From Amycolatopsis sp. EV170708-02-1 (GTDB lineage Bacteria > Actinomycetota > Actinomycetes > Mycobacteriales > Pseudonocardiaceae), in contig NZ_CP092497.1 in the NCBI RefSeq assembly GCF_022479115.1, forward strand, positions 1,240,001 to 1,304,000: DNA of 64,000 nt, in the 5' to 3' direction. Shown piece by piece: positions 1 through 14,237 of this stretch. Under the pieces are notes generated by a model. The model did not search any database and was not told where the DNA came from. It worked only from the letters and a program-made list of their open reading frames with translations. The position numbers were made by a program, and so were the translations under genes. How positions within the stretch are numbered: position 1 is the stretch's first letter; the number at the start of each line of letters is the position of its first letter.

Positions 1-1172
1 ACCCGCTCGGCCACGACGGACTCGTCGAGTTTGCCGTCGAAGGTCTCGGCCTCGGTGCCGTCCTCGTCGGAGTAACCGAAGACGCCGACCGCGTCCAGGC
101 GGGCGCCGTTCAGGAAGCGCTCCAGCTCGGCGAGGTCCTCCTCGGTCTCGCCGGGGAACCCGACGATGACGTTGGTGCGGATGCCGGCGTTGGGCGAGTG
201 CTCCCGGATCTGGTCGCACAGCGCGAGGAACGAATCCGTCGAGCCGAAGCGGCGCATGCGGCGCAGCACGGTCTCGCTGGAGTGCTGGAAGGACAGGTCG
301 AAGTAGTCGGCGACGCCCGGGGTGGTCGCGATGGCCTTGACCAGGCCGGGGCGCGTCTCGGCGGGCTGCAGGTACGAGACGCGGACGCGTTCGATCCCGG
401 GAACCGCGGCCAGGCGCGGCACCAGCAGCTCCAGCGCGCGGGCGCCGTCGCGGCCGAAGTCCTTGCCGTAGGAGGTGGAGTTCTCCGAGACGAGGAAGAC
501 CTCCTTGACGCCGTTCTCCGCGAGCCACATCGCCTCGGCGACGATCTCGTCCGGCTGCCGCGACACGAACGACCCGCGGAACGACGGGATCGCGCAGAAC
601 GAACAGCGACGGTCGCACCCGGAGGCGATCTTCAGCGCGGCGACCGGGGAGGTGTCGAGCCTGGTCCGCAGCACCCGCGGGCCCCAGCCGTGCTGCGCGT
701 GCCCCGGCACCTCGACCGACTCGGCGGCGGTCGGACGCTGGACCGGGCTGATCGGCAGCAGCTTGCGGCGGTCGGACGGCGTGTGCGACTCGACCTTGCG
801 GCCGGCCACGACGTCGTCGAGACGCTCGGCGAGGTCCGCGTAGTGGTCGAAGCCCAGGACCGCGTCGGCCTCCGGCAGGCTCTCGGCCAGCTCGTTGCCG
901 TAGCGCTCGGCCATGCAGCCGACGGCGACGACCTTCTTGCCGGTGTCGGAGGCCGCGAGCAGCGTGTCGACGGAGTCCTTCTTGGCGGACTCGACGAAGC
1001 CGCAGGTGTTGACGACCACGACGTCGGAGTCCTCGGGCTCGGCGGCGAGCTCCCAGCCGCCCGCCGCCAGCCGTCCGGCGAGTTCCTCGGAATCGACCTC
1101 GTTGCGGGCGCAACCGAGGGTCAACAAGGAAACGCGACGGGTGGCGACAGGATCAGTGGTGGGAGAAGGCAC
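1..1172 (-). CDS. rimO: Ribosomal protein S12 methylthiotransferase RimO (3' end cut by window edge)
   Basis: RimO is a radical-SAM enzyme that adds a methylthio group to the conserved aspartate of ribosomal protein S12. The minus-strand reading frame opens [20 protein letters not shown], followed by the [10 protein letters not shown] segment of the N-terminal iron-sulphur domain. The radical-SAM cluster motif CDRRCSFC lies near positions 590-616. About 390 codons are present, so the TRAM-containing C-terminus is off the window. GTG at 1172 was chosen because the frame begins there and a TACCCT box (1180-1185, minus strand) sits 7 nt upstream, suggesting a leaderless transcript. MiaB is the main alternative, but the start of the protein matches RimO better. 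Confidence 0.9.
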
Positions 1173-1260
1173 GTGCCTTAGGGTAGCTGGCCTGTTCGCG
1201 GGGTCGGCGATCGCTCGCTCGGGCGAGCCCTCGGCCGGGCCGGGCGCCGGGGATGGCTTA

Positions 1261-1788
1261 ATGGTGGACGTGCCCTCAGACCCTCTCCCACACCGCCGCC
1301 CCACCGTCCGCCGGGCGCGGATCGCGGACGTCCGCAAGATCAAGGCGCTGGTCGACTCCGACGCCGGGACGGTGCTGCTGGAGAAGGAACTCGTCACCCT
1401 CTACGAGAGCGTCCAGGAGTTCTGGGTGGTCGAGGACGGCGACGACGTGCTCGGCTGCGGCGCGCTCCACGTCCTGTGGGAGGACATCGCCGAGCTGCGC
1501 ACCATCGCGGTCGACAAGGACTCCCGGGGTCGCGGCATCGGGCACGCGCTGGTGGCGCAGCTGATCGATTTCGCCCGCGAGATCGGGCTGAAGCGGCTGT
1601 TCGTGCTGACCTTCGAGACCCACTTCTTCGCCGGACACGGGTTCGTCGAGATCGACGGCACTCCGGTGACACAGGAGGTCTACGAGGAGATGCGGCGCTC
1701 GGCCGATCCGGGCGTCGCGGAGTTCCTCGACCTGCCGTACGTGAAGCCGAACACCTTGGGCAACAGCCGGATGCTGCTGGAGCTGTAG
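1261..1788 (+). CDS. argA: GNAT amino-acid N-acetyltransferase (ArgA-type)
   Basis: A 175-residue single-domain GNAT acetyltransferase. It probably acetylates glutamate at the first step of arginine synthesis, like the short ArgA found beside ftsK in mycobacteria. The acetyl-CoA binding loop reads [11 protein letters not shown] in the middle of the protein, preceded by strands typical of the fold ([10 protein letters not shown]). The C-terminus ([21 protein letters not shown]) is typical of this short family. The frame is open further upstream, but homology to the fold begins just after the ATG at 1261. Gene order with rimO and ftsK supports the assignment. Substrate is inferred from family and context only. 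Confidence 0.7.
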
Positions 1789-1790
1789 CT

Positions 1791-1868
1791 GAAGGGCGCT
1801 TTCCCCGCATAGGACGCGGTGAAGGGCGCTTTCACCGCATCACATGCGGTGAAGGACGCTTTCAGCCC
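1791..1868. repeat. Intergenic 30-bp tandem repeat, family C
   Basis: Three copies of GAAGGRCGCTTTC begin at 1791, 1821 and 1851, an exact 30-bp period. They are separated by short palindromes such as ACCGCATCACATGCGGT. The same unit recurs at 39223-39295 and 60025-60103. It lies between convergent genes, and the stop codon of the minus-strand CGNR gene is inside the last unit, so it probably acts as a terminator or transcript 3' structure. Confidence 0.8.
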
Positions 1869-2389
1869 TTCTTCGCGTGCCTGGCGACCCGCACCCGGTT
1901 GCCGCACAGCGACGGCGTGCACCACACGCGCCTGCTGTTGGCCGCCACGAACAGCATCGAGCAATCGTGCGCGCCGCATCGCCGCAGCCGAGCGGCACGC
2001 GGCCCGGACACGAGGTCGATCGCCGCGACCGCGACCGCGGCGAGGGCGATCTCGCCGCCGTCCTCGCCGTGCCAGCAGGTCTCCGCGCCCTCGGCGGTCA
2101 GCCGCGGGCTGGTCGGGACGGCGGCCGCGGCCGCGTTCACCCGCTCCACCGCCCACGCCTCGGGCTCCCGCGCCGCCACGACCGCTTCCAGCAGCTCGCG
2201 CACCGCCGAACGCAGCCGCCTCGTCTGCTCGGCCGACGGTGCCCGGGCGCCCTCGGGCAGCGCCTGTGTCGCCCAGAACTTCGCATGGCCGTCGTCAAGC
2301 AGATCGACCGACGGCGAGACGGCCAGCATGACCGTGTCGGCGAGGTTCACCGCGAGATCGTCACCGGGAAGCGAGTCGAGATCGAGCAT
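1862..2389 (-). CDS. CGNR zinc-finger (ABATE-domain) regulator
   Basis: A 175-residue protein with an N-terminal ABATE-type helical region and a C-terminal CGNR zinc finger. The finger is visible as RRCGAHDCSMLFV followed by RRVWCTPSLCGNRVRVARH, giving four cysteines and the signature Cys-Gly-Asn-Arg. Such proteins are presumed transcription factors. The gene is divergent from a hydrolase/nitroreductase pair, with a perfect 9-bp inverted repeat in the shared intergenic region, so it likely regulates that pair and itself (inference). ATG at 2389 follows an AAGG. The stop codon lies inside the family C repeat. Confidence 0.8.
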   Translation of the reverse strand: MLDLDSLPGDDLAVNLADTVMLAVSPSVDLLDDGHAKFWATQALPEGARAPSAEQTRRLRSAVRELLEAVVAAREPEAWAVERVNAAAAAVPTSPRLTAEGAETCWHGEDGGEIALAAVAVAAIDLVSGPRAARLRRCGAHDCSMLFVAANSRRVWCTPSLCGNRVRVARHAKKG

Positions 2390-2408
2390 GCCTTGACACT
2401 ATCAGGTA

Positions 2409-2438
2409 CTAATGGTTCGAGACAGTTTTAACCATTAG
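2409..2438. promoter_or_regulatory. Inverted repeat between CGNR regulator and hydrolase (candidate operator)
   Basis: CTAATGGTT (2409-2417) and AACCATTAG (2430-2438) form a perfect 9-bp inverted repeat with a 12-nt spacer, in an AT-rich patch that stands out from its surroundings. A TTGACA hexamer lies at 2393-2398. The dyad ends just before the hydrolase ribosome binding site AGGGAG (2437-2442). This is the expected place for a divergent operator; function is inferred. Confidence 0.55.
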
Positions 2439-2447
2439 GGAGTGTTC

Positions 2448-3293
2448 ATGGCGACCATCCGGCACCGTTCCGTCAAACTCGGCGACGTCGAGGTCTTCTA
2501 TCGCGAAGCCGGTGACCCCGAAGCGCCCGTTTTGCTTCTGCTGCACGGCTTCCCGACGTCTTCGCACCAGTTCGTTCGGTTGATGCGGCGTCTCGCCGGA
2601 CGGTGGCGGCTCATCGCCCCGGACCTGCCGGGCTTCGGGCAGACTGTCACGCCCGAGGGCTTCACGTTCACCTTCGACCGGCTCGCGGAGGTCGTCGGCG
2701 AGTTCGTGGACGCGCTGGAACTGCGGCGGTACGCGCTCTACGTCTTCGATTTCGGTGCCCCGACGGGCCTGCGGCTGGCCGTCTCGCGGCCGTCCCAGAT
2801 CACGGCGCTGATCACGCAGAACGGCAACGCCTACGTCGAGGGGCTCGGCCCGGCGATGCCGGACTTCCCCTCCCTCACCGACGAAGCCGAGGCGCGGCGC
2901 GGGTTCGAGAAGATCCTCGAACCGGACCAGATCGAGTACCAGTACACCGGCGCCCGCGATCCGGAGACCATCGATCCCGCGAACTACCTGCTGGACCAGT
3001 ACTTCCTGGAGCGTCCCGGGCGCGCGGAGGCGATGCTGGACCTGTTCTGGGACTACCGGAACAACCCGCCCGCGTACCCGAAGTTCCAGGCGTGGCTGCG
3101 CGAAGCCCAGCCGCCCGTGCTCGCCGTGTGGGGTCGTAACGACCCGTTCTTCGTCCCGGCGGGAGCCGAGGCTTTCCGGAATGATGTCCCCTCGGCGGAG
3201 GTCCACCTCTTCGACACCGGGCACTTCGCGCTGGAAGAGGACCTCGAACCGATCAGCGAGCTGATCGACCGCTTCCTGGCGGCGCATCTCTAG
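2448..3293 (+). CDS. Alpha/beta hydrolase, dehalogenase/epoxide-hydrolase type
   Basis: A 281-residue cytosolic alpha/beta hydrolase. The oxyanion-hole motif LLHGFPTSSHQF is near residue 32. The nucleophile elbow reads YVFDFGAPTG, with Asp where serine hydrolases have Ser, as in haloalkane dehalogenases and epoxide hydrolases. The acid region is VWGRNDPFF and the catalytic histidine is in DTGHFALEED. ATG 2448 is preferred over GTG 2442 because AGGGAG at 2437-2442 gives a 5-nt spacing. It is followed 11 nt later by a nitroreductase, so the two are probably co-transcribed under the divergent CGNR regulator, perhaps for a xenobiotic or reactive-electrophile response (inference). Substrate unknown. 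Confidence 0.8.
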   Translation: MATIRHRSVKLGDVEVFYREAGDPEAPVLLLLHGFPTSSHQFVRLMRRLAGRWRLIAPDLPGFGQTVTPEGFTFTFDRLAEVVGEFVDALELRRYALYVFDFGAPTGLRLAVSRPSQITALITQNGNAYVEGLGPAMPDFPSLTDEAEARRGFEKILEPDQIEYQYTGARDPETIDPANYLLDQYFLERPGRAEAMLDLFWDYRNNPPAYPKFQAWLREAQPPVLAVWGRNDPFFVPAGAEAFRNDVPSAEVHLFDTGHFALEEDLEPISELIDRFLAAHL

Positions 3294-3304
3294 AAGGGCG
3301 GCAT

Positions 3305-3946
3305 ATGGACACCACGGTCACCGACCACCTGCTGAGCACGACACGAGCGGTCCGCCGCAAACTCGACCTGGACCGGCCGGTGGAACCCGAAGTGCTCGAC
3401 GAATGCCTGCGGCTCGCGCTGCAGGCGCCCACACCGGGCAACCAGCAGGCATGGCGATGGCTCGTCGTGCGGGATCAGGGTGTGAAGGACCGGCTGTCCG
3501 AGCTGTTCCGGCGGGCCGGAAAGGCGTACCTGGAGACGAACGCGGCGGCGCTGGGCGAGGCCATCACCGAGCCTTTGGTGGCGCGGGCGTTCGCTTCGGG
3601 GCAGCACCTGATCGACGTGATCGACCGGGTGCCCGTGTTCGTCATCCCGTGCCTGACCGGCAGGCCGAGCGGCGACAACGCGACCGACGCCGCCTTCTAC
3701 GGCGGGATCTTCCCGGCGGTGTGGAACTTCCAGCTGGCGCTGCGGTCACGAGGCCTCGGCTCGACACTCACGACGTACCACCTGACCCACGAGGCGGAGG
3801 CGGCCGAGATCCTCGGCATCCCGTCCGGCGTCACGCAGGCCGGGCTGCTGCCCGTCGCCTACACGACAGTGCCGGACTTCAAACCCGCGGCGCGCGTGCC
3901 GCTGTCCGAGGTCGCCTATCTCGACGGCTGGGGCAATCCGCTTTAA
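3305..3946 (+). CDS. Nitroreductase-family FMN oxidoreductase
   Basis: A 213-residue flavoprotein of the nitroreductase superfamily, expected to use FMN and NAD(P)H. The hallmark N-terminal segment RAVRRKLDLDRPVEPEVL is followed by APTPGNQQAWRW, the usual FMN-contact region. The later GLGSTLTTYHL and ILGIPSGVTQAGLLPVAY segments match the second half of the fold. A ribosome binding site AAGGGCGG precedes ATG 3305. It forms an operon with the upstream hydrolase and overlaps the convergent lipoprotein gene by 4 bp. The natural substrate cannot be deduced. Confidence 0.85.
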   Translation: MDTTVTDHLLSTTRAVRRKLDLDRPVEPEVLDECLRLALQAPTPGNQQAWRWLVVRDQGVKDRLSELFRRAGKAYLETNAAALGEAITEPLVARAFASGQHLIDVIDRVPVFVIPCLTGRPSGDNATDAAFYGGIFPAVWNFQLALRSRGLGSTLTTYHLTHEAEAAEILGIPSGVTQAGLLPVAYTTVPDFKPAARVPLSEVAYLDGWGNPL

Positions 3947-4416
3947 GCCTTGGACACCCGCAGGGTGACCTGGTCGCCCCCCGAACTCACGGCGACCAGG
4001 TCCACCCGGCAGGCGGCGAACTCGACGGACTGCCTGCCACCACGTCCGGTGGAGGCGAGGGCCGCCGTCGTCCGCTCACCGCGTCCCGGTTCGGCCAAGG
4101 TCAGCTCGACCACGGCCTCCCCTTCCCAGACGCAGACCATTCCCGTGGCGCAGCGGGAATCGGACATCAGGCGAGCGAAGCGGATACTGACGTCCTTCGA
4201 CGCGACTTCGGCCGTGTCACCGGTCTTGAGGACGACGGTCTCCCCCAGCTCGACGCTGTCCTGAGCGTCGCTGGCCGGCTGAGGCCGCTGCACCGGCGCG
4301 GGCTGGGCCGCCGGGGGCTGGGCCGGCGCCGGTTGTTCGCGCGCGGAGGAGCTGCCGGCTCCGCAGGCGAGGCCGGCCAGTGCGCAGAAGACGACGAGCA
4401 GCTTCTTGAGGTCCAC
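3943..4416 (-). CDS. Small secreted lipoprotein
   Basis: A 157-residue exported protein of unknown function. The signal peptide MDLKKLLVVFCALAG ends in lipobox LACG with lipidation at Cys18. A Ser/Pro/Ala/Gln-rich linker (about residues 20-55) follows, then a compact domain of about 100 residues containing two cysteines (SRCATGMVC and AACRVDLVAV). Basic and acidic residues alternate in strand-like segments, suggesting a small beta-domain outside the membrane. It lies immediately downstream of rloB on the same strand (43-bp gap) but shows no link to it by content. Confidence 0.7.
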   Translation of the reverse strand: MDLKKLLVVFCALAGLACGAGSSSAREQPAPAQPPAAQPAPVQRPQPASDAQDSVELGETVVLKTGDTAEVASKDVSIRFARLMSDSRCATGMVCVWEGEAVVELTLAEPGRGERTTAALASTGRGGRQSVEFAACRVDLVAVSSGGDQVTLRVSKA

Positions 4417-4459
4417 GGGCTAAGGACGTAGCGGAGGCTCCGGTCCGTTGCATCGGTCT

Positions 4460-5035
4460 TCAGCTGATCTTTTCGACCAAGGCCCAGACGCCCGTGGACG
4501 GGTTGTGGCCGTGCTCGAAACCCAGCTCGACGTCGTGTTTCTTCGCGCGCTGGACGGCGGATCCGACCCCGCTCTCGTAATCCGCGAACCGCAACGCCGA
4601 CTTGCTGAAGCCCGGCACGTGCTTGATCAGGCGTTTCGCGACGTCGCCGTAGCACGTCAGCGGCGCCGAACAGGCCTCGAAATGCAACAACAGCCAGAAC
4701 TCGAAACAGGGGTTCGAGATCGCCAGGTTGACCTGAAGCCTGCGCGCGGTCGTCGCCGCCTTGTCGAGGTCGAACTCGTCGACATCGACCACGCACCACA
4801 CCTCGTCGTGCGTTCCCTCCGCGCGATCGCGCATCCCCGCCGCGTACTTGACCACGGCTTCCGGGTCTCCGCGCTTCGCTTTGATCTTGATCGTGATAGC
4901 GGGGTTGCGACGAGCCCGTTTGAGTCCTTCGAAGTACGCGGGCTCCGTGGCCTCGGCACCGCAGACGACGAGCATCGACGTTCGCTGTTCCCGGAACGCC
5001 GATCGCCGCCGACCGCTGTTCTCCCGGCGGGTCAT
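4460..5035 (-). CDS. rloB: RloB-family nuclease-like protein
   Basis: A 191-residue member of the RloB family, small proteins with a Toprim-like fold found next to RloA ATPases. Three family blocks are visible: [15 protein letters not shown] near residue 25 (conserved Glu), [10 protein letters not shown] (a DxD metal-binding pair), and [14 protein letters not shown]. The last is the most diagnostic. Its start overlaps the rloA stop as ATGA (5032-5035), so the two are translationally coupled. Known of the family: RloA/RloB were first noted as restriction-linked genes, and the architecture resembles OLD and PARIS defence modules. A role in cleaving nucleic acid during abortive infection is inference. 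Confidence 0.85.
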
Positions 5036-6261
5036 CTGCCCAGCACTGCCTCGGTGAAGTCGCCCAGTACCGGCACGGCCCCGTAGCTACCAGCGAGATA
5101 ACGCCGTTCGGTGTTCTGGTCTTTGCGCGGTTTGAAGTCCGTGAGCGGATACAGCTCGCTGGCGCCCGCGGTGTTCTTGTCGACGAACCAGATCTGGTCC
5201 CGTTCCAGGACGCTGCCACCGAGCATGGTGCCCTGGAGACTCGTGTCGTGGGTGGTGAAGACGAGCTGGGCGCCGTTGGGGTTGGTCACTTCGGACTGAA
5301 AGAGGCTCACGAGCTTCGCGGTCAGCATCGGATGCAGGCTCGAGTCGATCTCGTCGACGACGAGAACCTGCGCTTCGTCGAGCGCGTCCAGAACGGTCGG
5401 GATGAGCCTGAGCCAATTCCTGGTCCCAGCGGACTCGTCGTGCAGTTCGAACGGTGATTCGGCATCACCGTGCCAGAACCTCAGCCTCCATCGTGGCCCG
5501 GATACGGAACCGGCACCCCGCCCTGTCAGGAGCCGCACGTCCCGTTGGCTCGGCGCCTCATCGACCTGCTCCGCGAGGACATCCGCGATTCCCACATCAG
5601 CGGCGGTGAGCAAGGACAGCAACCGGTGGCTATTGCGTGCGTCGCGTTGCAGGAAATGGCCCACTCGGCTCCCCACGTCGTCGGAAGCCCACGTCCCCTC
5701 GGCCGACACGATCCGGAGAGATTGCTCGAACCAGCGATACACCGGCATCAACGGGCCGAGTTCGAGTCCGGAGCAGAAGCTCAGCAAGAGCACGTCACCA
5801 CGGATCAACTCTTCCAGAGCGGCGAACTTACTCTTCAAACTCGCCGAAGTGGAACCGAATCGAAGGTCGTCTCCCGTTCGCTCGAACACCACCCGCCGAC
5901 GCTTTTCGGGATAGGCATACAGCCATTCCTCGACGACCGCATCGTCACTCGCTCGGAAGCCGTACGTGTACCGCGTTCCTTCGGCAAGGATTTCGATCAC
6001 GAACGTCGACGGCCGCTCCACCGCTTGGGGATCCAACCGGAATACGCTGCGTGGCCAAGCGCCGAGAAGTTTCGACGTCAGCACTCCGACCGCCATGTAG
6101 GTCAGCCCGTCGAGCAGGTTCGACTTGCCCGAGGCGTTCGCCCCGTAGATGGCCGCCACCGGAACCACCGGGCGGTCGTCCCCCGGCATCGCGGGCATCA
6201 GGAGCAGCTCATGCTCGTCACGGAACGAGCGATGGTTGCCCAACCGAAAGCTCCGGAGCAC
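5032..6261 (-). CDS. rloA: RloA-type AAA_15/OLD-family ATPase
   Basis: A 409-residue SMC/ABC-like ATPase. Walker A reads [13 protein letters not shown] (about residues 39-51), the ABC-signature-like ESAGTRNWL occurs late, Walker B is [14 protein letters not shown], and the switch histidine is in [10 protein letters not shown]. These are the marks of the AAA_15/OLD ATPases that partner RloB. GTG 6261 is preferred to GTG 6270 because AGGGAGG ends at 6270, giving 8-nt spacing, and because the protein then opens [13 protein letters not shown], the canonical start. It is coupled to rloB by a 4-bp overlap. It probably forms an ATP-gated complex with RloB that senses phage infection (inference). Confidence 0.85.
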
Positions 6262-6285
6262 CCTGACCACCTCCCTGGCAAAGTT

Positions 6286-6326
6286 TCAGGCCGTTCCATG
6301 CCAGTAAACCGCACAGAACGGCCTGA
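6286..6326. terminator. 11-bp inverted repeat between ftsK and rloA
   Basis: TCAGGCCGTTC (6286-6296) pairs perfectly with GAACGGCCTGA (6316-6326) across a 19-nt loop. It lies just downstream of ftsK and just upstream of rloA on the same strand. It could terminate ftsK transcripts or act as an operator for the rloAB promoter. There is no T-run, as is usual in this group. Confidence 0.5.
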
Positions 6327-6346
6327 AGCATCATCCAGGGCCGGGT

Positions 6347-8845
6347 TCAGTCGTCGGAGATGTCTCCGCCTCCTCCGTCCCCGCCGCCGCGGATCATGAA
6401 CAGCACCGACTCCAGCTCCTCCGGCTTGATCAGCACGTCCCGCGCCTTCGAGCCCTCCGAAGGACCGACGACACCCCGGCTTTCCAGCAGGTCCATCAGC
6501 CGCCCGGCCTTGGCGAAGCCGACCCGCAGCTTCCGCTGCAGCATCGACGTCGAGCCGAACTGCGAGGTGACGATCAGCTCAGCCGCCTGCAACAGCACGT
6601 CGAGGTCGTCGCCGATGTCGGAGTCGATCTCCTTCTTCTCGCCCGCCTTCGCCGCGGTGACGCCGTCCTGGTAGTCCGGCTGTGCCTGCTCCTTGGCGAA
6701 GTTCACCACCGCGGAGATCTCTTCGTCGCCGACGAAGGCGCCCTGGATGCGGACCGGTTTCCCGGCACCCATCGGCAGGTATAGCGCATCACCCATACCG
6801 ATGAGCTTCTCCGCGCCCGGCTGGTCGAGGATGACCCGCGAGTCGGTGAGCGACGAGGTCGCGAACGCCAGCCGCGACGGCACGTTCGTCTTGATCAGGC
6901 CGGTCACGACGTCGACCGACGGACGCTGGGTCGCCAGCACCAGGTGGATACCGGCGGCACGCGCCTTCTGGGTGATCCGGACGATCGCGTCCTCGACGTC
7001 GCGCGGGGCGGTCATCATGAGGTCGGCGAGCTCGTCGACGATGGCCATGATGTACGGGTACGGCTGGTAGACGCGCTCGCTGCCCGGCGGCGCGGTGATC
7101 TCGCCCGAGCGCACCTTCTTGTTGTAGTCGTCGATGTGCCGGACCTTGTTGACCTGCATGTCCTGATAGCGCTGCTCCATCTCCTCCACCAGCCAGGCCA
7201 GCGCCGCGGCGGCCTTCTTCGGCTGGGTGATGATGGGCGTGATCAGGTGCGGGATGCCCTCGTACGGGGTCAGCTCGACCATCTTCGGGTCGATCAGGAT
7301 CATCCGGCACTCGTCCGGCGTCGACCGCGCCAGCAGCGACACCAGCATCGAGTTCACGAAGCTCGACTTACCGGAACCGGTGGACCCCGCCACCAGCAGG
7401 TGCGGCATCTTCGTCAGGTTCGCGGTGACGAAATGGCCCTCGATGTCCTTGCCGAGCCCGATGACCATCGGGTGGTTGTCCTTGACCGTCGACGGCGCGC
7501 GCAGCACGTCGCCGAGGCGCACCATCTCGCGGTCGGAGTTCGGCACCTCGATACCGACGGCGGATTTGCCGGGGATCGGCGCCAGCAGCCGGACGTTGTC
7601 GGTCGCCACCGCGTAGGCGATGTTCTTGGTCAGCGCGGTGATCTTCTCGACCTTCACGCCGGGGCCGAGCTCGACCTCGTACCGGGTGACCGTCGGCCCC
7701 CGCGTGAAGCCGGTGACCTGCGCGTCGACGTTGAACTGCTCCAGCACGCCGGTGATCGCCTCGATCATGGCGTCGTTGGCCTTGCTGCGGGACTTCGGCG
7801 CGTCGCCGAGCTTCAGCAGGTCCGGCGGCGGGAGCTTGTAGTCGCCCTCGACGGTCCTAGTGACCGCCAGCGGCGCCTCGGCCTTCTTCGGCTTCTTCTC
7901 TTCGACAGGCTTGGGAGCGGGCTTCGGCGGGCGCAGCGGCGTCGGCGCTTCGGCCAGCGCGGCCTCGATGTCGAGCTGCTCGCCCTCCTGGTCGGCCGAA
8001 GCCTGGCGGCGGCGCGACGGCTTCCGCAGGCGGACCGACTTCGGATCGGCCTCGGTGACGGCGTCGCGTTCCTCGTGGATGGCCTTGCGCTCGGCCTCGG
8101 CCTCTTCGATCTCTTCGGGGTCGAGACCCCAGTTCCGCAGGCGGTGCGGGATCTCCCGGACCGGCGTCCCGGTGAACACGAGCGTGCCGAACAGCAGCGC
8201 AAGCACCAGCAGCGGCACCGCGACCCACGTGGTGACGCCCATGGTCAGCAGGCCGCCGGAGAACGCGCCGATCACCCCGCCGGCGTACATCCGGCCGTCG
8301 TTGGTCTCGGGCAGCGCGGTGAAGATGTGCAGCAGGCCGAGTACCGCCAGGACCACCAGCAGGGTGCCGATGACCATCCGCGGCCGGGCCTCGGGCACCG
8401 GCTCGGACCGCATCAGCGCGACGGCCACCACGGTGAGCACCAGCGGCAGCGTCACCGCCCCGGCGCCCAGCAGGGAACGGGTGCCGACCTCGACCCAGCC
8501 GCCGATCGGGCCGGCGGCCCGCCACCAGACACCGAACGCGATCACCAGCGCCAGCGCGATGAGACCGAGGGCGAGACCGTCGCGACGGTGCTCGGGTTCC
8601 AGTTCGCGGCCGCGGCCGACCGTACGGGCGAGGGTGCCGAGGCCCTTCGCGAGCAGGTTCCAGGTGCCGCGCACGCCTTTGGCGAACGTGCCGGACGAGC
8701 GCTTCCGCGGCGCCGGTCGCCGTGGAGCGGGCTTCCTCGCAGCCGTTGACCTGGGCTTCGCCGGGGTACGCGGCTTTCGCGCCGGCCCCTTGCTGCCGCC
8801 GCTTCGCGCCGTACTCCGCTTCCTGGTCGTCGACCCGCTAGCCAT
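6347..8845 (-). CDS. ftsK: DNA translocase FtsK
   Basis: FtsK is a septum-anchored hexameric DNA pump that clears the terminus region and aids dimer resolution. The 832-residue protein starts MASGSTTRKRS with a long basic Lys/Arg/Pro tail, followed by about four membrane segments (residues 90-250) and a charged linker. The motor has Walker A VAGSTGSGKSSFV near residue 480 and Walker B-type IVDELADLMM. The C-terminal gamma winged helix that reads KOPS sites is present (QRKLRVGFAKAGRLMDLLES). ATG 8845 was chosen over an upstream in-frame ATG because homology and GTGGAGAC start there. Its neighbours argA and rimO are the usual ones. Confidence 0.95.
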   Translation of the reverse strand: MASGSTTRKRSTARSGGSKGPARKPRTPAKPRSTAARKPAPRRPAPRKRSSGTFAKGVRGTWNLLAKGLGTLARTVGRGRELEPEHRRDGLALGLIALALVIAFGVWWRAAGPIGGWVEVGTRSLLGAGAVTLPLVLTVVAVALMRSEPVPEARPRMVIGTLLVVLAVLGLLHIFTALPETNDGRMYAGGVIGAFSGGLLTMGVTTWVAVPLLVLALLFGTLVFTGTPVREIPHRLRNWGLDPEEIEEAEAERKAIHEERDAVTEADPKSVRLRKPSRRRQASADQEGEQLDIEAALAEAPTPLRPPKPAPKPVEEKKPKKAEAPLAVTRTVEGDYKLPPPDLLKLGDAPKSRSKANDAMIEAITGVLEQFNVDAQVTGFTRGPTVTRYEVELGPGVKVEKITALTKNIAYAVATDNVRLLAPIPGKSAVGIEVPNSDREMVRLGDVLRAPSTVKDNHPMVIGLGKDIEGHFVTANLTKMPHLLVAGSTGSGKSSFVNSMLVSLLARSTPDECRMILIDPKMVELTPYEGIPHLITPIITQPKKAAAALAWLVEEMEQRYQDMQVNKVRHIDDYNKKVRSGEITAPPGSERVYQPYPYIMAIVDELADLMMTAPRDVEDAIVRITQKARAAGIHLVLATQRPSVDVVTGLIKTNVPSRLAFATSSLTDSRVILDQPGAEKLIGMGDALYLPMGAGKPVRIQGAFVGDEEISAVVNFAKEQAQPDYQDGVTAAKAGEKKEIDSDIGDDLDVLLQAAELIVTSQFGSTSMLQRKLRVGFAKAGRLMDLLESRGVVGPSEGSKARDVLIKPEELESVLFMIRGGGDGGGGDISDD

Positions 8846-8960
8846 GTCTCCACGGTAACCGCCTCGACCCTCCAGCCCCGGCTGCCACTCGGAGCACATC
8901 CGGAACATTCGTCTCAGGTCACAGCTTGAGCGGCCATCCGGGTGAAAAGGGGTTCATGAC

Positions 8961-9782
8961 ATGCTCTGCCCCATGTTCGCGCTGCATCAGGAGGATAATT
9001 CGGCTCGCCGCGCCCCGGCCATCTGGCGCACGATGCTGAACATCGACCGGGGGCTGGTCAACTTCGTCGGCAAACTGACCGTCACCGGCGGTGTTTCGGC
9101 GGAACTGCGACGGCGGCCCCTGCTCATGACGGCCAACCACATCGGCGTGTTCGACGCGTTCGTGCTGATGGCGGCCTGCAAACGGATCGGCATCAACCCG
9201 CGGTTCATGCTGGCGGGCGGCATCCTCGACGCACCGGTCATCGGCCCGGCGCTGCGGGTCAGCGGTCACCTGCGGGTCGACCGCAAAGAGGCGTCGACGG
9301 CCGTCGGCCAGTTCGCCGAAGCCGCCGAAGCACTGCGGACCACCCGCGACCCGCTGATCGTCTACCCCGAGGGCCGGATCAGCCACGACCCCGGCCTGTG
9401 GCCGGAGCGGGGCAAGACCGGCGCGGCGCGGCTGGCGCTGGCCGCCGGGGTGCCGGTGATCCCGATCAGCCAGTGGGGCGCGCACGAGGCCGTCTACTGG
9501 GGGACGGAGACCGTCAACGGCCCCGCCGATCTGGTGCCGCTCGCCAAGTCCGGGCTGAGCGCGCCCATGCGGCGGCCGCGGTTCAAGGTGCACTTCGGCG
9601 ACCCTGTCGACCTGTCGGAGGTCGAGCCGGAGCGGCCGGGCGCCGGGGTCCGAGCGCACGCCAAGATCATGCAGGCGATCACCGACGGCCTGGTCCCGCT
9701 GCGCCGCGACGAACTGGACAAGCCCCGGTTCCACGACCCGACGCGGCCGACGGACACCGTCAGCCCCTGGAAGAAGCACTGA
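8961..9782 (+). CDS. 1-acylglycerol-3-phosphate acyltransferase (PlsC-like)
   Basis: A 273-residue membrane-associated acyltransferase that probably adds the second acyl chain during phospholipid synthesis. The catalytic NHx4D motif appears as TANHIGVFDAF near residue 54. The second block GHLRVDRKEAS, the third block VYPEGRISHD and the fourth block VPVIPISQWG all match the PlsC family in order and spacing. ATG 8961 was kept, though ATG 8973 is in frame and possible. The gene is divergent from ftsK with a 115-bp intergenic gap. The specific acyl acceptor is not determinable. Confidence 0.85.
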   Translation: MLCPMFALHQEDNSARRAPAIWRTMLNIDRGLVNFVGKLTVTGGVSAELRRRPLLMTANHIGVFDAFVLMAACKRIGINPRFMLAGGILDAPVIGPALRVSGHLRVDRKEASTAVGQFAEAAEALRTTRDPLIVYPEGRISHDPGLWPERGKTGAARLALAAGVPVIPISQWGAHEAVYWGTETVNGPADLVPLAKSGLSAPMRRPRFKVHFGDPVDLSEVEPERPGAGVRAHAKIMQAITDGLVPLRRDELDKPRFHDPTRPTDTVSPWKKH

Positions 9783-9830
9783 GTTCCGGATCCTGAGACG
9801 GGGGCTCACGCTCGCCTAGGGTCGGCGGAC

Positions 9831-10445
9831 GTGAGCACCCGCATCCTCGTCGTCTACTACAGCGCGACCGGCAACACCGCGAAACTGGCGTCGGCGCTGG
9901 CCGGCGGCGCCCGCGAGGCCGAAGCCGACGTCCGCGTCCGCACGGTTCCCGAAACCGCCCCGCCCGGTGCGGTGGCGAGCAATCCGCGCTGGCAGGCGTG
10001 GGTGGACGCAGGGCCGCACCACGAGACGGCGACGCTGGAAGACCTGGAGTGGGCCGACGGTTTCGCGGCGGGCAGCCCGACCCGGTTCGGTGGCCCCGCC
10101 GCGCAACTGAAGTCCTTTTTGGACAGTACGGGCGGGCTGTGGGCCAAGGGAAAGCTCGTGAACAAGGTCGCGACGTCGTTCACCACCGCGTCCACCGCGC
10201 ACGGCGGGCTCGAATCGACCGTGCTCGCGACGAACAACATCTTCTACCACTGGGGCGCCATCGTCCTGCCGCTCGGCTACACCGATCCGCGACTGCTCGA
10301 ATCGGGCAATCCGTACGGTGGCTCGTTCGTCTCGCGCAAGTCCGCCGAGCCCGACGATCTCGCCCTCGACGCCCTCCGTCTGCAGGGGCGACGGCTCGCC
10401 ACCGTCTCGCGCTACATCGCCGACGGGCTCTTCAAGGACGGGTGA
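9831..10445 (+). CDS. Flavodoxin/WrbA-type NAD(P)H oxidoreductase
   Basis: A 204-residue flavodoxin-fold protein. The FMN phosphate loop reads VVYYSATGNTAKLA at the N-terminus, and the second flavin loop is AGSPTRFGGPAAQLKSFLD. TTASTAHGGLESTVL and HWGAIVLPLGY are typical of WrbA-like quinone reductases, which make two-electron reductions of quinones. GTG 9831 is preceded by TAGGGT at 9817-9822 with 8 nt between and no Shine-Dalgarno, suggesting a leaderless message. It stands alone between the acyltransferase and the WXG-like triad. Confidence 0.85.
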   Translation: MSTRILVVYYSATGNTAKLASALAGGAREAEADVRVRTVPETAPPGAVASNPRWQAWVDAGPHHETATLEDLEWADGFAAGSPTRFGGPAAQLKSFLDSTGGLWAKGKLVNKVATSFTTASTAHGGLESTVLATNNIFYHWGAIVLPLGYTDPRLLESGNPYGGSFVSRKSAEPDDLALDALRLQGRRLATVSRYIADGLFKDG

Positions 10446-10515
10446 AGGGAACCGCGCGGCCTTCTCCCGCGTCGTAGAGTGGTCACACAGCGTCACGCTA
10501 CGGGGAGGAAGCGGG

Positions 10516-10806
10516 ATGACCGGCGGGTACGAGGTGGCTCTGGGGGCGATCGGCGCGGCGTCAAGCGCGGCGAGAAGGGCTTCGGCCGATGTCGGGAAGG
10601 TGGACCTCGCGGCCACGCTCGCCGGCGTCGCGACGGGTTTGCCGGGCGGCGTTTCCGGTGAAGCGGCCCGGCTGCTCGCGGACGCCTGGGGCCGCGCGGT
10701 GCCCGGATGGGCCGGGAACACCGCGGACTACGCCGAACGGCTCGACGCGGCGGCCGTCCGCTACCGCGCCAACGAGCTGGCGGCGTCACGGGAACTCCCC
10801 GTCTGA
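10516..10806 (+). CDS. Small WXG100/EspC-like helical protein
   Basis: A 96-residue alpha-helical protein rich in Ala and Gly, with the segment VPGWAGNTADYAERL near residue 65 resembling the WXG turn of type VII secretion substrates. ATG 10516 follows GGAGG at 10503-10507. It overlaps the start of the DUF1023 gene by one base, so the two are coupled. Small helical partners of this kind often chaperone or co-export the larger effector; here that is inference. No signal peptide or membrane segment. Confidence 0.6.
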   Translation: MTGGYEVALGAIGAASSAARRASADVGKVDLAATLAGVATGLPGGVSGEAARLLADAWGRAVPGWAGNTADYAERLDAAAVRYRANELAASRELPV

Positions 10807-12338
10807 TGCTCACCTGGGGAGACGTGCGCCGGTGGGATCCGGCCGCGATCGGCGAGGTCGCCGACGCGCTCAACGACGGGTGCACCCGGATCGTCGCCGC
10901 GAACGACGACGTCGAAGCCATGGCGCGCTTCACGGGCTGGACCGGCGACGCCGCCATCGCCGCGTCGACGCGGGGCGAATCGCTGACGTCGACCTTGGAG
11001 CGGCTCGTCGCCGGGGCGTCCGCGGTCCGGCGGGGCGCGCACGAGGTGCAGATCGCGCTGGACCGGATCGTCGCGTTCGTGCGGGAGACCGACGAACTGG
11101 CCCACCGGAACGGCCTGGCCATCGGTGCCGGTGGCGAGATCACCGTCGGCGTCGCGCGGCCTGACCAGGCTCGCGTGATGGCGGAACTGGCCGACAGGGT
11201 CGAACAGGGCCTGCGCCGCGCGACCGACGTCGACGCCGATTTCGCCGAGATCCTGCGCCGCGCGCTGCGGGGCGAGATCACCGAGCAGGGTGGCGGCACG
11301 CTCGCCCAAGCGGCCGACGCCGGAGCCGCGCAAAGCGGCCTGTCGATCATCGGCCCGCCGGAGAACGGCACTCCCGGTGACAACAAGGCCTGGTGGGCGA
11401 GCCTGTCGGACACGGCGAAAGTCGCCCTGCTGCAAGGAAATCCCGGGCTCATCGGGAATCTCGACGGCATTCCGGCGGCCGACCGCGACGCCGCCAACCG
11501 CGCCGTCCTCGCCCGCGAGATCGCGCGGCTGCAAGGTGATCCCAAACTCAAGGGACTCGAAGCCATCCAACAGCGGCTGGACCGGTCGGAGCCGCGGGCG
11601 TTCCTGCTGGGGCTGGACACCGGCGGCGACGGGAAGGCGATCGTGTCCGCGGGGAATCCCGACACCGCGGTGAACGTGGCGACATACGTGCCGGGGACCG
11701 GTTCGGAGTTGTCGAAAATCGGCGGCGATCTCAACCGGTCCGACAAGATGTGGGCCGCGGCGACCACGTCGGGCTCGCCCTCGACCGCCGTGATCACCTG
11801 GCTCGGCTACGACGCGCCGAACGAGATCACCGACGCCGCGAGCGCCGAGTACGCCGACGGCGGCAAGGCGGCCCTCGCGCAATTCCAAGACGGGCTACGG
11901 GAAACGCATCAAGGGCCGCCCTCGCACAACACGGTGATGGGGCACAGCTACGGCACCACCGTCGTCGGGCACGCCGCCGTCGACGGTGGCCTCGCCGCGG
12001 ACGAACTGGTCTTCGTGGCGAGCCCCGGCGTCGGCGCGCACGACGTGAGCGAACTGCGTCTCGACGGGGTGAATCAGGACGAGATCGGCAAGCACGTGCA
12101 CGCGACGGTGGCCGAGCACGACATGATCAACCTGGCGAACCTCGAAATCGCCGGATACGACCCGATCCTCGGCCAGGACCCGACCGACGCGGACTTCGGC
12201 GGGCAGGTGTTCACCTCGGCGCCGGGCACGGACGGGTGGGGCGGGTACAGCAAGGAAGCGCACAGCGAATACTGGGAAGACAACAACCCGTCACTCCGGA
12301 ATCTCGGCTTGATCATCGCCGGGAAGCCCTCCTCGTGA
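10806..12338 (+). CDS. DUF1023 alpha/beta hydrolase with WXG-like N-terminus
   Basis: A 510-residue two-part protein. Residues 1 to about 170 are helical and contain the WXG-like turn FTGWTGDAAIAAS. Residues from about 280 form a DUF1023 alpha/beta-hydrolase domain with the nucleophile motif VMGHSYGTTVVGHA and a downstream VFVASPGVGAHDVSEL. A late EAHSEYW segment probably holds the catalytic His. The layout resembles type VII-exported toxins or surface esterases of actinobacteria. It is coupled to the small helical gene before it and overlaps the lipoprotein after it by GTGA (12335-12338), making a three-gene unit. Substrate unknown. Confidence 0.75.
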   Translation: MLTWGDVRRWDPAAIGEVADALNDGCTRIVAANDDVEAMARFTGWTGDAAIAASTRGESLTSTLERLVAGASAVRRGAHEVQIALDRIVAFVRETDELAHRNGLAIGAGGEITVGVARPDQARVMAELADRVEQGLRRATDVDADFAEILRRALRGEITEQGGGTLAQAADAGAAQSGLSIIGPPENGTPGDNKAWWASLSDTAKVALLQGNPGLIGNLDGIPAADRDAANRAVLAREIARLQGDPKLKGLEAIQQRLDRSEPRAFLLGLDTGGDGKAIVSAGNPDTAVNVATYVPGTGSELSKIGGDLNRSDKMWAAATTSGSPSTAVITWLGYDAPNEITDAASAEYADGGKAALAQFQDGLRETHQGPPSHNTVMGHSYGTTVVGHAAVDGGLAADELVFVASPGVGAHDVSELRLDGVNQDEIGKHVHATVAEHDMINLANLEIAGYDPILGQDPTDADFGGQVFTSAPGTDGWGGYSKEAHSEYWEDNNPSLRNLGLIIAGKPSS

Positions 12339-12951
12339 AACTCCCGCTCCTGACCGCTCTTCTCGTGCTCTTGTCCGCTTGTTCCTCCGGAGGTGGAGAC
12401 GCCGTGAAACCGACCATCACCGAACACGAGGCGAAAGACAGGGTCGAGCAGTACATCGAGGCCGTGGTCGCCGCGCTGCCCGGCTCCGCGGAACGGAAAC
12501 CGTTCACCCAGCACAGGTCGGAATGCACCGATCCCACCGACGACGGCCCCAAGGACGCTTCGAGATCTCCGCGACCTACGAGATCACCGGCCTCGAACCC
12601 GCACGGTTCGGCGAATACTTCGACGCGATCGTCCAGTGGTGGTCGGCTCACGACTTCGCGGTCCTGACGGATTCGCGGCCTAAAGATCAATACGTGTTCG
12701 TCAGGAACAAGGCGGACGCCTTCGACATGACCGTGCAGGCGAACGACCTCGGCAAGTTCTACGTCGGCGCCACCTCCCCCTGTGTCTGGCCGAACGGCAC
12801 CCCCGAACCCCAGGCCCTCGAAACCGCCGAGCCCGAACAGCCGGTCGCCGCTCCCCCGGAGCCGGAGCCGGTACGCAAACCGCGTCGCGCTCCCGTCGAC
12901 GACGAGGACTTCGCCCAGACGAACTGGACCGACGGCGGCACCTCCTTCTGA
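12335..12951 (+). pseudogene. Lipoprotein gene interrupted by a one-base frameshift
   Basis: The first frame starts at GTG 12335 with signal peptide VKLPLLTALLVLLSACSSGG (lipobox LSAC) and runs to TDPTDDGPKD. The rest of a sensible protein continues in the -1 frame from about 12545 as GRFEISATYEITGLEP, through FDAIVQWWSAHDFAVL, to a Pro-rich acidic tail ending DGGTSF at 12951. Both parts together make about 205 residues, the size of lipoproteins that follow DUF1023 genes. The break is at a CCCCAAGG stretch (about 12547-12554) and is best explained by one missing base, either a real mutation or a sequencing error. It may be the periplasmic partner of the DUF1023 hydrolase (inference). Confidence 0.65.
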
Positions 12952-12967
12952 CCGCTCGCCCAAGTAC

Positions 12968-13014
12968 GTGAAGGTCGAGTTTCCTCGGCTGAGCCGAGGG
13001 AAGGGGCCTTCACG
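12968..13014. terminator. Nested hairpin after the lipoprotein
   Basis: Outer arms CGTGAAGG (12968-12975) and CCTTCACG (13007-13014) enclose an inner stem CCTCGGC (12983-12989), loop TGA, GCCGAGG (12993-12999). It lies just after the DUF1023 triad and probably ends that transcript. Confidence 0.6.
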
Positions 13015-13065
13015 CGCAGGCGCCGTGGCTGCTGGTGCATATGGGACGCTCGTGGCGATCATCAA

Positions 13066-13120
13066 GTCCGTGAAGGCCTCCTTGAGGGACCCAGAGTCCC
13101 TCAAGGAGGCCTTCACGGAC
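13066..13120. repeat. 25-bp perfect inverted repeat, family B
   Basis: Two perfect 25-bp arms (13066-13090 and 13096-13120) flank a 5-nt loop CCAGA. The element is of the same family as 33036-33086; the arms differ at one base pair that has changed on both sides. It probably acts as a bidirectional terminator. Confidence 0.8.
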
Positions 13121-13151
13121 CTGCCCAGTGGCCCATCCGCAGCCAGGACCG

Positions 13152-13197
13152 CTCGTGAGTGGCCCGGCCGGTTCTAACCGTCCTCGCCACTCACGAG
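13152..13197. repeat. Intergenic palindrome, family A
   Basis: CTCGTGAGTGGC (13152-13163) pairs with GCCACTCACGAG (13186-13197), with inner CGGTT/AACCG around 13169-13180. The same palindrome family occurs at 26720-26761, split by the insertion sequence at 18125-19496, and as a half copy at 62661-62685. The 314-bp stretch 12952-13265 holds only these three structures and the promoter of the next gene. Confidence 0.8.
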
Positions 13198-13265
13198 GCC
13201 CGGCCGGAGACCAGCCGTTGGGAAAACGGGTCGCCCCGCCGCCACCCGGCCTCTACCCTCCGGCC

Positions 13266-14237
13266 GTGACCGCCGAACTCGCCGCCGCCCCCAGCCAGCA
13301 CGTCGCGCGTCGCGGCCGGGGCATCACGCTGATCCTGCTCGCCGCGCTCTTCTTCGGCACCTCGGGTGTGCTGGGCAAACCGGCGATGCAGGCCGGGTTG
13401 TCGCCGGAGCAGGTCGCGGCGATCCGCATCGGGCTGTCGGCGCTCGTGCTGCTCTCGCTGGTCGCCGTCTTCCGGCCGAAACTCCTGAAAGTCACGAAGA
13501 ACGAGTGGCCGCTGCTGCTCGCGTACGGCTCGCTCGGCGTCGCGGGCGTCCAGCTCATGTACTTCCTCTCGGCGGGCCGGATCCCGGTCGGGATCGCGAT
13601 CCTGCTCGAGTTCACCTCACCGGTGCTGATCGCGTTGTGGGTGCGGTTCGTGCGCCGGGTGCGCCTGCCGAGGGCGATGTGGGCGGGGATCGCGCTGGCG
13701 ATGACCGGGCTCGTGCTGGTCGCGCAGGTCTGGGAGGGACTCAGCCTGGACGTCCTCGGGTTGCTCGCCGGGCTCGGCGCGGCCGTCTGTTCGGCGGGCT
13801 ACTTCCTCCTCGGCGAGCGTGGCGTCGCGGACCGGGATCCGCTCGGCATGGTCACCTGGGGGATGACGATCGGCGCGGTCCTGGTGTGCGCCGTCGCCCC
13901 GCCGTGGACGATCCCGTGGGGCGTCCTCGACGCGCCGGCGACGTTCGGGCCGTGGGAGCCCCCGGTGTGGTCGTTGCTGATCGCGTTGGTGCTGATCGCG
14001 ACCGTTCTCGCCTACGCGACGGGCATGGCGGCGCTCCGTCATCTCCCGGCGTCGGTGGCGAGCGTCGTCGGGCTGGTCGAGCCGCTGATCGCCGCCGCCG
14101 CGGCCTGGCTGCTGCTGGGCGAGGCACTCAGCTGGATTCAGGCCGCGGGCGCGGTGGTGCTGCTGACCGGCGCGTACATCGTCCAGCTGAATTCGAACGT
14201 GGTCCAGACGGACTCAACCCTGCTGGAAGCCCCGTAG
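13266..14237 (+). CDS. EamA/RhaT-family drug/metabolite transporter
   Basis: A 323-residue integral membrane protein with about ten hydrophobic segments forming two EamA repeats. The first begins GITLILLAALFFGTSGVLG; the second contains LLALGLLLG-like segments and ends SWIQAAGAVVLLTGAYIVQL. Such proteins export or exchange small metabolites. GTG 13266 has TACCCT at 13254-13259, 6 nt upstream, and no Shine-Dalgarno, again suggesting a leaderless start. Its last 24 bp overlap the convergent DUF305 gene. Substrate unknown. Confidence 0.85.
   Translation: MTAELAAAPSQHVARRGRGITLILLAALFFGTSGVLGKPAMQAGLSPEQVAAIRIGLSALVLLSLVAVFRPKLLKVTKNEWPLLLAYGSLGVAGVQLMYFLSAGRIPVGIAILLEFTSPVLIALWVRFVRRVRLPRAMWAGIALAMTGLVLVAQVWEGLSLDVLGLLAGLGAAVCSAGYFLLGERGVADRDPLGMVTWGMTIGAVLVCAVAPPWTIPWGVLDAPATFGPWEPPVWSLLIALVLIATVLAYATGMAALRHLPASVASVVGLVEPLIAAAAAWLLLGEALSWIQAAGAVVLLTGAYIVQLNSNVVQTDSTLLEAP

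Follow-up and report, generated by a model that had tools for sequence, protein, structure and literature searches.

The rloA–rloB pair beside ftsK in the window (the whole 64,000-nucleotide stretch of Amycolatopsis sp. EV170708-02-1 DNA that was analysed) is probably an AbiL-type abortive-infection or toxin–antitoxin module, in which RloA would be the sensor and RloB the effector, the sensor core appears to have been swapped between lineages and expression may be adjusted from the leader. This kind of system, comprising an OLD-like ABC ATPase and an effector with a probable Toprim fold, is already known, AbiL itself since the 1990s. Less ordinary are the patchy occupancy of one chromosomal site, with an rloA core apparently swapped among close species, a hairpin that is tied to the module, and a Gly in RloB at the position of the Toprim Glu. 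The initial annotation had proposed a defence or toxin-like ATPase–effector pair; this is well supported, with the addition that the pair also belongs to a named system, as indicated by PADLOC and by the accessible part of PMC10440598.

RloB matches the Pfam family RloB (PF13707; E 1.1e-39, 137 bits where the cut-off is 31.5), and RloA matches AAA_21 (PF13304; E 2.2e-38) and AAA_15 (7e-8). With the PADLOC models, RloA is assigned to AbiLi (5e-89), the AriA model coming second and far weaker (4e-37), while AbiLii (4.9e-28) is the sole family matched by RloB at E up to 0.1, AriB giving no match. The order, ATPase then RloB in a coupled bicistronic arrangement, is that of AbiL, and a PF13707 profile search of the window genome gave one match. 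Reading the letters alone, the initial annotation had described rloA and a 191-aa rloB coupled by ATGA, placed between a lipoprotein gene and ftsK with no restriction genes. Coupling, placement and all quoted motifs are borne out, and no restriction enzyme is found among the 12 proteins of positions 913–14237 that were run against Pfam, nor is a UvrD-like gene or a reverse transcriptase. The four-base overlap recurs in 15 of 17 junction copies compared (one base in G017; rloB of G007 is readable from residue 11 only in this comparison). The rloA frame, 5032–6270 on the minus strand, has 412 codons and opens at GTG 6270, and RloA residues are numbered from there; since a Shine–Dalgarno sequence, AGGGAGG, abuts 6270 and the alignments of several homologues begin at residue 4, the start at 6261 (that residue) is likelier. 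A promoter scan found no sigma-70-type promoter, and in a terminator scan terminators were at the level of shuffled sequence. Elsewhere in the window, 10707–12338 encodes a 543-aa protein with Abhydrolase_8 (PF06259) at residues 306–454 and a long N-terminal part that has no Pfam match, and 1862–2389 encodes a putative stress regulator with an ABATE/CGNR zinc finger.

Table 1. Features of the rloA–rloB cassette and its borders (window coordinates).
Feature	Position	Strand	Remarks
Lipoprotein-like gene, 157 aa, one cassette border	3943..4416	-	Named from reading of the N-terminus; no Pfam match
rloB (AbiLii-like), 191 aa, putative effector, probable Toprim fold	4460..5035	-	
RloB codon 26 (Gly), Toprim motif I position	4958..4960	-	Glu in 48/69 aligned rows
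ATGA overlap, rloB start and rloA stop	5032..5035	-	
rloA (AbiLi-like), ABC ATPase, putative sensor/antitoxin	5032..6261	-	Likely start GTG 6261
RloA residues 277-336, with ABC signature ESAGT and Walker B	5263..5442	-	pN 0.16, pS 0.58
RloA residues 57-276, highly divergent core, appears replaced as a block	5443..6102	-	Mean pN 0.32, pS 0.62
rloA leader element (covariance model R1), between ftsK stop and rloA start	6265..6348	-	E 1.5e-22; the model was built with the window copy included
17-bp hairpin, 9-base loop GGTTTACTG (loop 6302-6310)	6285..6327	-	Window fold z -6.6; covariation
ftsK, other cassette border	6347..8908	-	PF01580 1.6e-70; FtsK_gamma 4.3e-22

The site was compared across 80 Amycolatopsis genomes, 24 of which have an RloB match at E 1e-6. 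FtsK is matched at E 1e-100 in 79 of them, and the ftsK junction was compared in those 79, contig ends cutting short the stretch beyond ftsK in G038, G028 and G037. We see the cassette right after ftsK in 20 junctions, followed by the lipoprotein-like gene in all but G072, and no RloA or RloB match in the other 59. The lipoprotein-like gene itself is matched in 67 of the 80 congeners and directly follows ftsK in many unoccupied junctions. Both frames are open in 16 of the occupied junctions and 4 are damaged: the first rloB codons are out of frame in G007, G063 and G076 are broken, and G013 is a deletion remnant. The initial annotation had treated presence in all close relatives as the mark of a housekeeping gene, and this is not the pattern found at the ftsK junction. 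On the ftsK tree, occupancy requires 14 changes (11 forced by starred branches) against a shuffled mean of 18.0, and 5 of 500 shuffles are as low. Together with the decay and two possible rloB 3′ remnants described below, we take this to mean a long-occupied site where the cassette has repeatedly been lost or exchanged through its flanks; the counts alone cannot separate gain from loss. The picture in Amycolatopsis extends the earlier description, with the pair as an old, partly decayed resident of one site.

A search of the 59 unoccupied junctions gave short remnant matches in six, and the reversed control gave four. Two lie where an rloB 3′ remnant is expected: G035 matches that end over 23 bases without a mismatch, and G043 matches over 25 bases at 92%; these are suggestive of remnants, though weak against that control, and the other matches were rejected as not well placed. 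Some pair-less junctions carry palindromic REP-like sequences between ftsK and the lipoprotein-like gene: variants of GTGAGTGGTAAGGACGGTTAGAACC in G014, G015 and G035 (L077, L091, L084), and others in G050, G038 and G074 (L090, L093, L089). Such palindromes were not seen in the 8 occupied junctions examined. Off-site rloAB copies occur in several Amycolatopsis genomes; L155 (G026) and L158 (G066) are of a type with Glu at RloB residue 26 and have no leader hairpin, and G066 has both types.

The clearest variation lies within rloA, and was assessed in ten pairs from five close species (G000, G034, G007, G024 and G020) whose ftsK nucleotide identity is 95–97%. Protein identity is 91–98% for RloB but only 64–74% for RloA. 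Mean pN/pS is 0.324/0.621 for RloA 57–276, the ABC-fold part between Walker A and the signature motif, and 0.161/0.576 for residues 277–336, where amino-acid divergence is lower in most pairs and yet pS is high. The corresponding values are 0.027/0.238 for RloA 1–56, 0.039/0.249 for RloA 337–412, 0.034/0.309 for RloB, 0.008/0.137 for FtsK, 0.063/0.146 for the lipoprotein-like gene, and 0.022/0.177 and 0.032/0.195 for the flanking nitroreductase and hydrolase. RloA 57–336 is near synonymous saturation, unlike the RloA ends, rloB and the four flanking genes. The contrast is sharpest in the sisters G020 and G024, where nucleotide identity is 98% over the ftsK end and RloA 1–56, falls to 51–64% across the core, and returns to 87% in the RloA end, 97–98% in rloB and 96% in the next gene. 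Because pS is saturated in the core and not in the ends, rloB or flanks, most clearly in this pair, the ATPase core appears to have been replaced by recombination.

Trees agree with this reading. Joining G020 and G024 is rejected for RloA 57–336 (AU p 0.026), while RloB (98/99) and ftsK (SH-aLRT 100) both join them and the RloA ends are neutral on the pairing (p 0.49). Keeping all five close species together in the core tree is compatible with the data (AU p 0.11), and four of them do share a core clade (97/92). Core identity within the close clade, 0.53, is not far from the 0.44 seen between clades; for the two ends the within-clade values are 0.94 and 0.92, and the between-clade values 0.87 and 0.83. 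G029 and G052, close on the ftsK tree, are rejected as partners for core, ends and RloB alike (p 2e-10, 0.0009 and 0.0002), which points to whole cassettes having moved as well as cores. Block replacement does not appear to be general across RloA copies: the broken G063 and G076 show little contrast with the window copy (73–86% in the core, 86–90% in the ends), none was seen in Nocardia, Nonomuraea or Streptomyces pairs, and the planctomycete pair L210/L228 is suggestive of it.

A covarying hairpin in the rloA leader is tied to the module. It is present in 19 of the 20 occupied junctions, G013 lacking it, and absent from all 11 unoccupied junctions examined. Thirty-three leaders were aligned, from the 19 Amycolatopsis junctions and from 14 other family genomes (one being A. 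pithecellobii, L170). TGCGGTTTA is kept in 33 of 33, a conservation that is partly selected for since the 14 non-junction leaders were picked by loop motif. The main helix is 85.6% paired, compared with 81.6 in shuffles and 28–43 when slid, although this figure by itself is biased towards the helix, which was defined on the window fold. Both-sided changes occupy 29 cells against 14.4 in shuffles (0 of 500 reach this) and affect 10 of the 17 helix pairs against 7.0 (28 of 500); in the 19 junction leaders alone, pairing is 92.4% with 16 both-sided cells against 7.3 (1 of 500). G-U pairs outnumber A-C mismatches by 73 to 25, or 44 to 23 once the two commonest columns are removed, a comparison among related rows for which the p value is not exact; the excess points to RNA of the rloA strand. 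An outer helix (columns 9–14 with 71–76) is 69.8% paired with 18 G-U against 15 A-C, and given this weak pairing we do not claim that it masks the Shine–Dalgarno sequence. Rfam gave no match at the hairpin, its two sub-threshold matches in 4000–7000 both lying elsewhere.

Searches with the covariance model, which was built from module leaders, return the same association. It is matched in 19 of the 80 congeners, at one place each and always at rloA of the ftsK junction, with no second place in the window genome among the candidates scored. At E 0.01 the model matches in 46 of the 297 genomes of the family sample, and every match precedes the module or what is left of it. In 43 of them RloB is matched on the same strand some 0.4–2 kb downstream (by visual comparison of two match tables, a few being gene fragments); in the remaining three, rloA follows immediately and rloB is eroded. 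A phylum sample of 296 genomes gave only the window genome and one chance hairpin, G250 (E 0.009), which was rejected as a leader as it has neither the loop nor an adjacent rloA. Because only the best 15 or 56 of about 450 to 2,600 candidates per genome were scored, with strict filters, weak hairpin places elsewhere may be missed. Sixteen of 20 family loci fetched match R1 at E 1e-6 or better, L283, L285, L287 and L288 giving no such match. There is likewise no match in the Glu26-type L155 and L158, in Gly26 Nocardia loci L171–L175 or in Streptomyces/Streptacidiphilus loci L178–L180, which places the hairpin in only a part of the Gly26 clade. Its likeliest role would be cis-control of rloA. 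In Nocardia leaders L171, L172 and L175, GGTATACT or GGTATGCT stands in place of the Amycolatopsis GGTTTACT loop, and from these counterparts a promoter origin of the leader element is possible.

Beyond Amycolatopsis junctions, RloB is rare in the phylum sample (10 of 296 genomes) and is found in 79 of 297 genomes of the family sample. In A. pithecellobii (L170) and Herbihabitans (L177) the module immediately follows ftsK, and in Solihabitans (L182) the two are 1.3 kb apart. FtsK is within about 2–5 kb in 5 of the 20 family loci fetched (L272, L279, L281, L282, L289) and in two of three others (L296, L298), and the ftsK neighbourhood therefore recurs; outside Amycolatopsis the module is often away from ftsK. 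In L297 and L298 rloB is eroded and rloA is full length, which is consistent with RloB being the costly half; in L296 rloB is eroded and rloA split, and the hairpin is kept in all three. Mobile carriage is sparse: no phage or plasmid record has an RloB relative at 60% identity or above, and relatives below that level occur in 4 of 50,697 phage records and 73 of 72,556 plasmid records.

For RloB, the structural model finds its best match in the Toprim region of OLD (6nk8), aligning from residue 19 with OLD residue 393. The protein probably has a Toprim fold, and residue 26 would correspond to OLD E400 and AriB E26. Foldseek alone did not identify RloB, a sequence search of solved structures gave nothing useful, and a match to the PIT54 structure was taken as chance. 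AriA, AriB, RNase M5 and DnaG are not among the VIA-align matches listed, which is no evidence against kinship. The RloB alignment holds 69 rows (the window and 68 of 80 loci, filtered by length and E-value; a second alignment kept 71 of 80 and the window), with Glu in 48, Gly in 20, all actinobacterial and including the window, and Asp in one at residue 26. Glu31, Asp84, Glu112, Trp114 and His118 are invariant in 69 of 69, and Asp86, which makes up a DxD motif with Asp84, is also present in the window RloB. Asp84, Asp86, Glu31 and Glu112 may be the counterparts of OLD ligands, judging by motif order and the first aligned residue rather than by a residue alignment. The RloB motifs quoted in the initial annotation are present, but they do not make a canonical active site, as CGAEATEP has Gly where homologues carry the Toprim Glu. 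In family loci L250–L270, 12 of 21 are readable by pattern and have Gly (10) or Cys (2) at residue 26, never Glu; four of these repeat rows of the alignment. The Gly26 rows fall on one side of a branch with a support of only 47, and a single Gly26 clade is not established.

The alternatives bear on these features in different ways. A fixed spot after ftsK in 20 Amycolatopsis genomes, ftsK adjoining or near the module in L170, L177, L182, five of 20 family loci, L296 and L298, and an archaeal OLD-family ATPase reported in cell-cycle progression (PMC12796447, in the part available) could all suggest a housekeeping or regulatory pair, tied to the function of ftsK in chromosome segregation or the cell cycle and kept near it for that. 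We consider this highly improbable: 59 of 79 junctions are without the pair and others show decay, nine hairpin-bearing family loci (L271, L273–L278, L280, L290) have no FtsK match in 13 kb, and a saturated core between conserved ends is not expected of a house gene. It is also very doubtful that the core simply diverged fast in place under diversifying selection with no import of DNA. The high core pN (0.32), the joint core clade of four close species and the non-rejection of all five would suit such divergence, but selection at the protein level does not raise pS, which is equally saturated in the core (0.58–0.62) and not in the ends, rloB or neighbours, and the core separates G020 from G024 though ftsK and RloB join them.

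We give rather more weight, while still thinking it unlikely, to the hairpin being an ftsK terminator or a DNA operator or promoter palindrome rather than an RNA leader. Here it follows the ftsK stop, and its loop contains TTTACT, a weak −10 look-alike, with TATACT or TATGCT at that place in some Nocardia leaders. Against this, the hairpin is absent from the 11 unoccupied junctions examined and was not found in 61 other congeners, the excess of G-U over A-C is as expected for RNA of the rloA strand, and the hairpin precedes rloA away from ftsK too, which argues that it is not an ftsK terminator. As for RloB, Gly at residue 26 in 20 of 69 rows and the lack of Glu in the 12 pattern-readable family loci raise the prospect that the Gly26 clade is catalytically dead and the module acts via RloA alone or by protein binding. 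In AriB, tRNA is no longer cleaved once E26 is changed to Ala (PMC12409363, in part), and by that analogy RloB could be inactive through its missing motif-I Glu. E400 of Burkholderia OLD is a residue of metal site A; when metal ligands of this protein were substituted one at a time, E400A among them, no discernible effect resulted (PMC6755086, in part). Since the two precedents differ, activity and inactivity are both possible; the five invariant residues and purifying selection on RloB (pN 0.03, pS 0.31) speak for function, and a dead RloB seems improbable.

In the AbiL-type reading that we favour, RloA, an OLD/Rad50-like ABC ATPase, would sense infection and restrain the effector, holding RloB until a phage trigger binds, as in PARIS (PMC11455837). 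RloB, with its probable Toprim fold, would then act, most likely on nucleic acid in the manner of AriA/AriB, and translational coupling may set the RloA:RloB ratio. The replaced block between Walker A and the ABC signature is, from the PARIS analogy, likely to recognise the trigger, and lineages would have exchanged this part at a single place in the chromosome, leaving the ATPase ends and RloB little changed. The cassette-specific RNA hairpin probably adjusts expression. Predicted folds agree with such a sensor–effector pair. In AbiL, the toxic effector is said to be AbiLii, and in a published toxin–antitoxin network the RloB-like node D44 with AAA ATPase D29 of Clostridium algidicarnis is among the pairs in toxicity-neutralisation assays, the D44 protein with its AAA partner supporting toxin and antitoxin roles (PMC10440598, available text and figure legend). 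A distinctly unlikely variant of the AbiL scheme is RNA-controlled: RloB, perhaps a weakened one-metal RNA nickase for want of the motif-I Glu, would bind or cut the module-only hairpin as decoy, substrate mimic or feedback switch, and RloA cores would pass between species as interchangeable trigger-recognition cassettes at a single chromosomal site.

The natural core swap on a near-identical cassette (G020 versus G024) offers a ready-made route to what the sensor recognises, the hairpin upstream of the module in 46 of 46 family matches is a way into the question of how such systems are silenced, and clade-wide loss of the Toprim Glu is a test of how much that active site can lose. Among the matches listed in open-licence PubMed Central text, no title or abstract mentions this hairpin, RloA core exchange or the Gly26 clade, which is weak evidence, and no statement on the AbiL trigger or target was found.

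Compared with known systems, the module differs from Septu and retron PtuA in that the partner is RloB and not the HNH protein PtuB, with no reverse transcriptase among the 12 neighbours. OLD class 1 and 2 nucleases and Gabija GajA combine an ABC ATPase with Toprim, a pairing that the module probably shares, and OLD Toprim is the best match of the RloB model; there the two are one protein and here they are two, with no UvrD-like gene in the 12 neighbours and the motif-I Glu absent. PARIS has separate ABC ATPase and Toprim genes, as is probable for this module, its ATPase being the sensor that holds the nuclease (PMC11455837; PMC12409363, in part), but here the effector is a PF13707 protein with no AriB match in PADLOC, and AriA comes second to AbiLi for the ATPase. 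Closest is AbiL of Lactococcus lactis, likewise two genes for an AAA ATPase and an RloB-domain protein, both matched by PADLOC models. The putative defence module described here differs from it in its chromosomal site beside ftsK, Gly26 in RloB and the apparent replacement of the RloA core, and perhaps in the leader hairpin.
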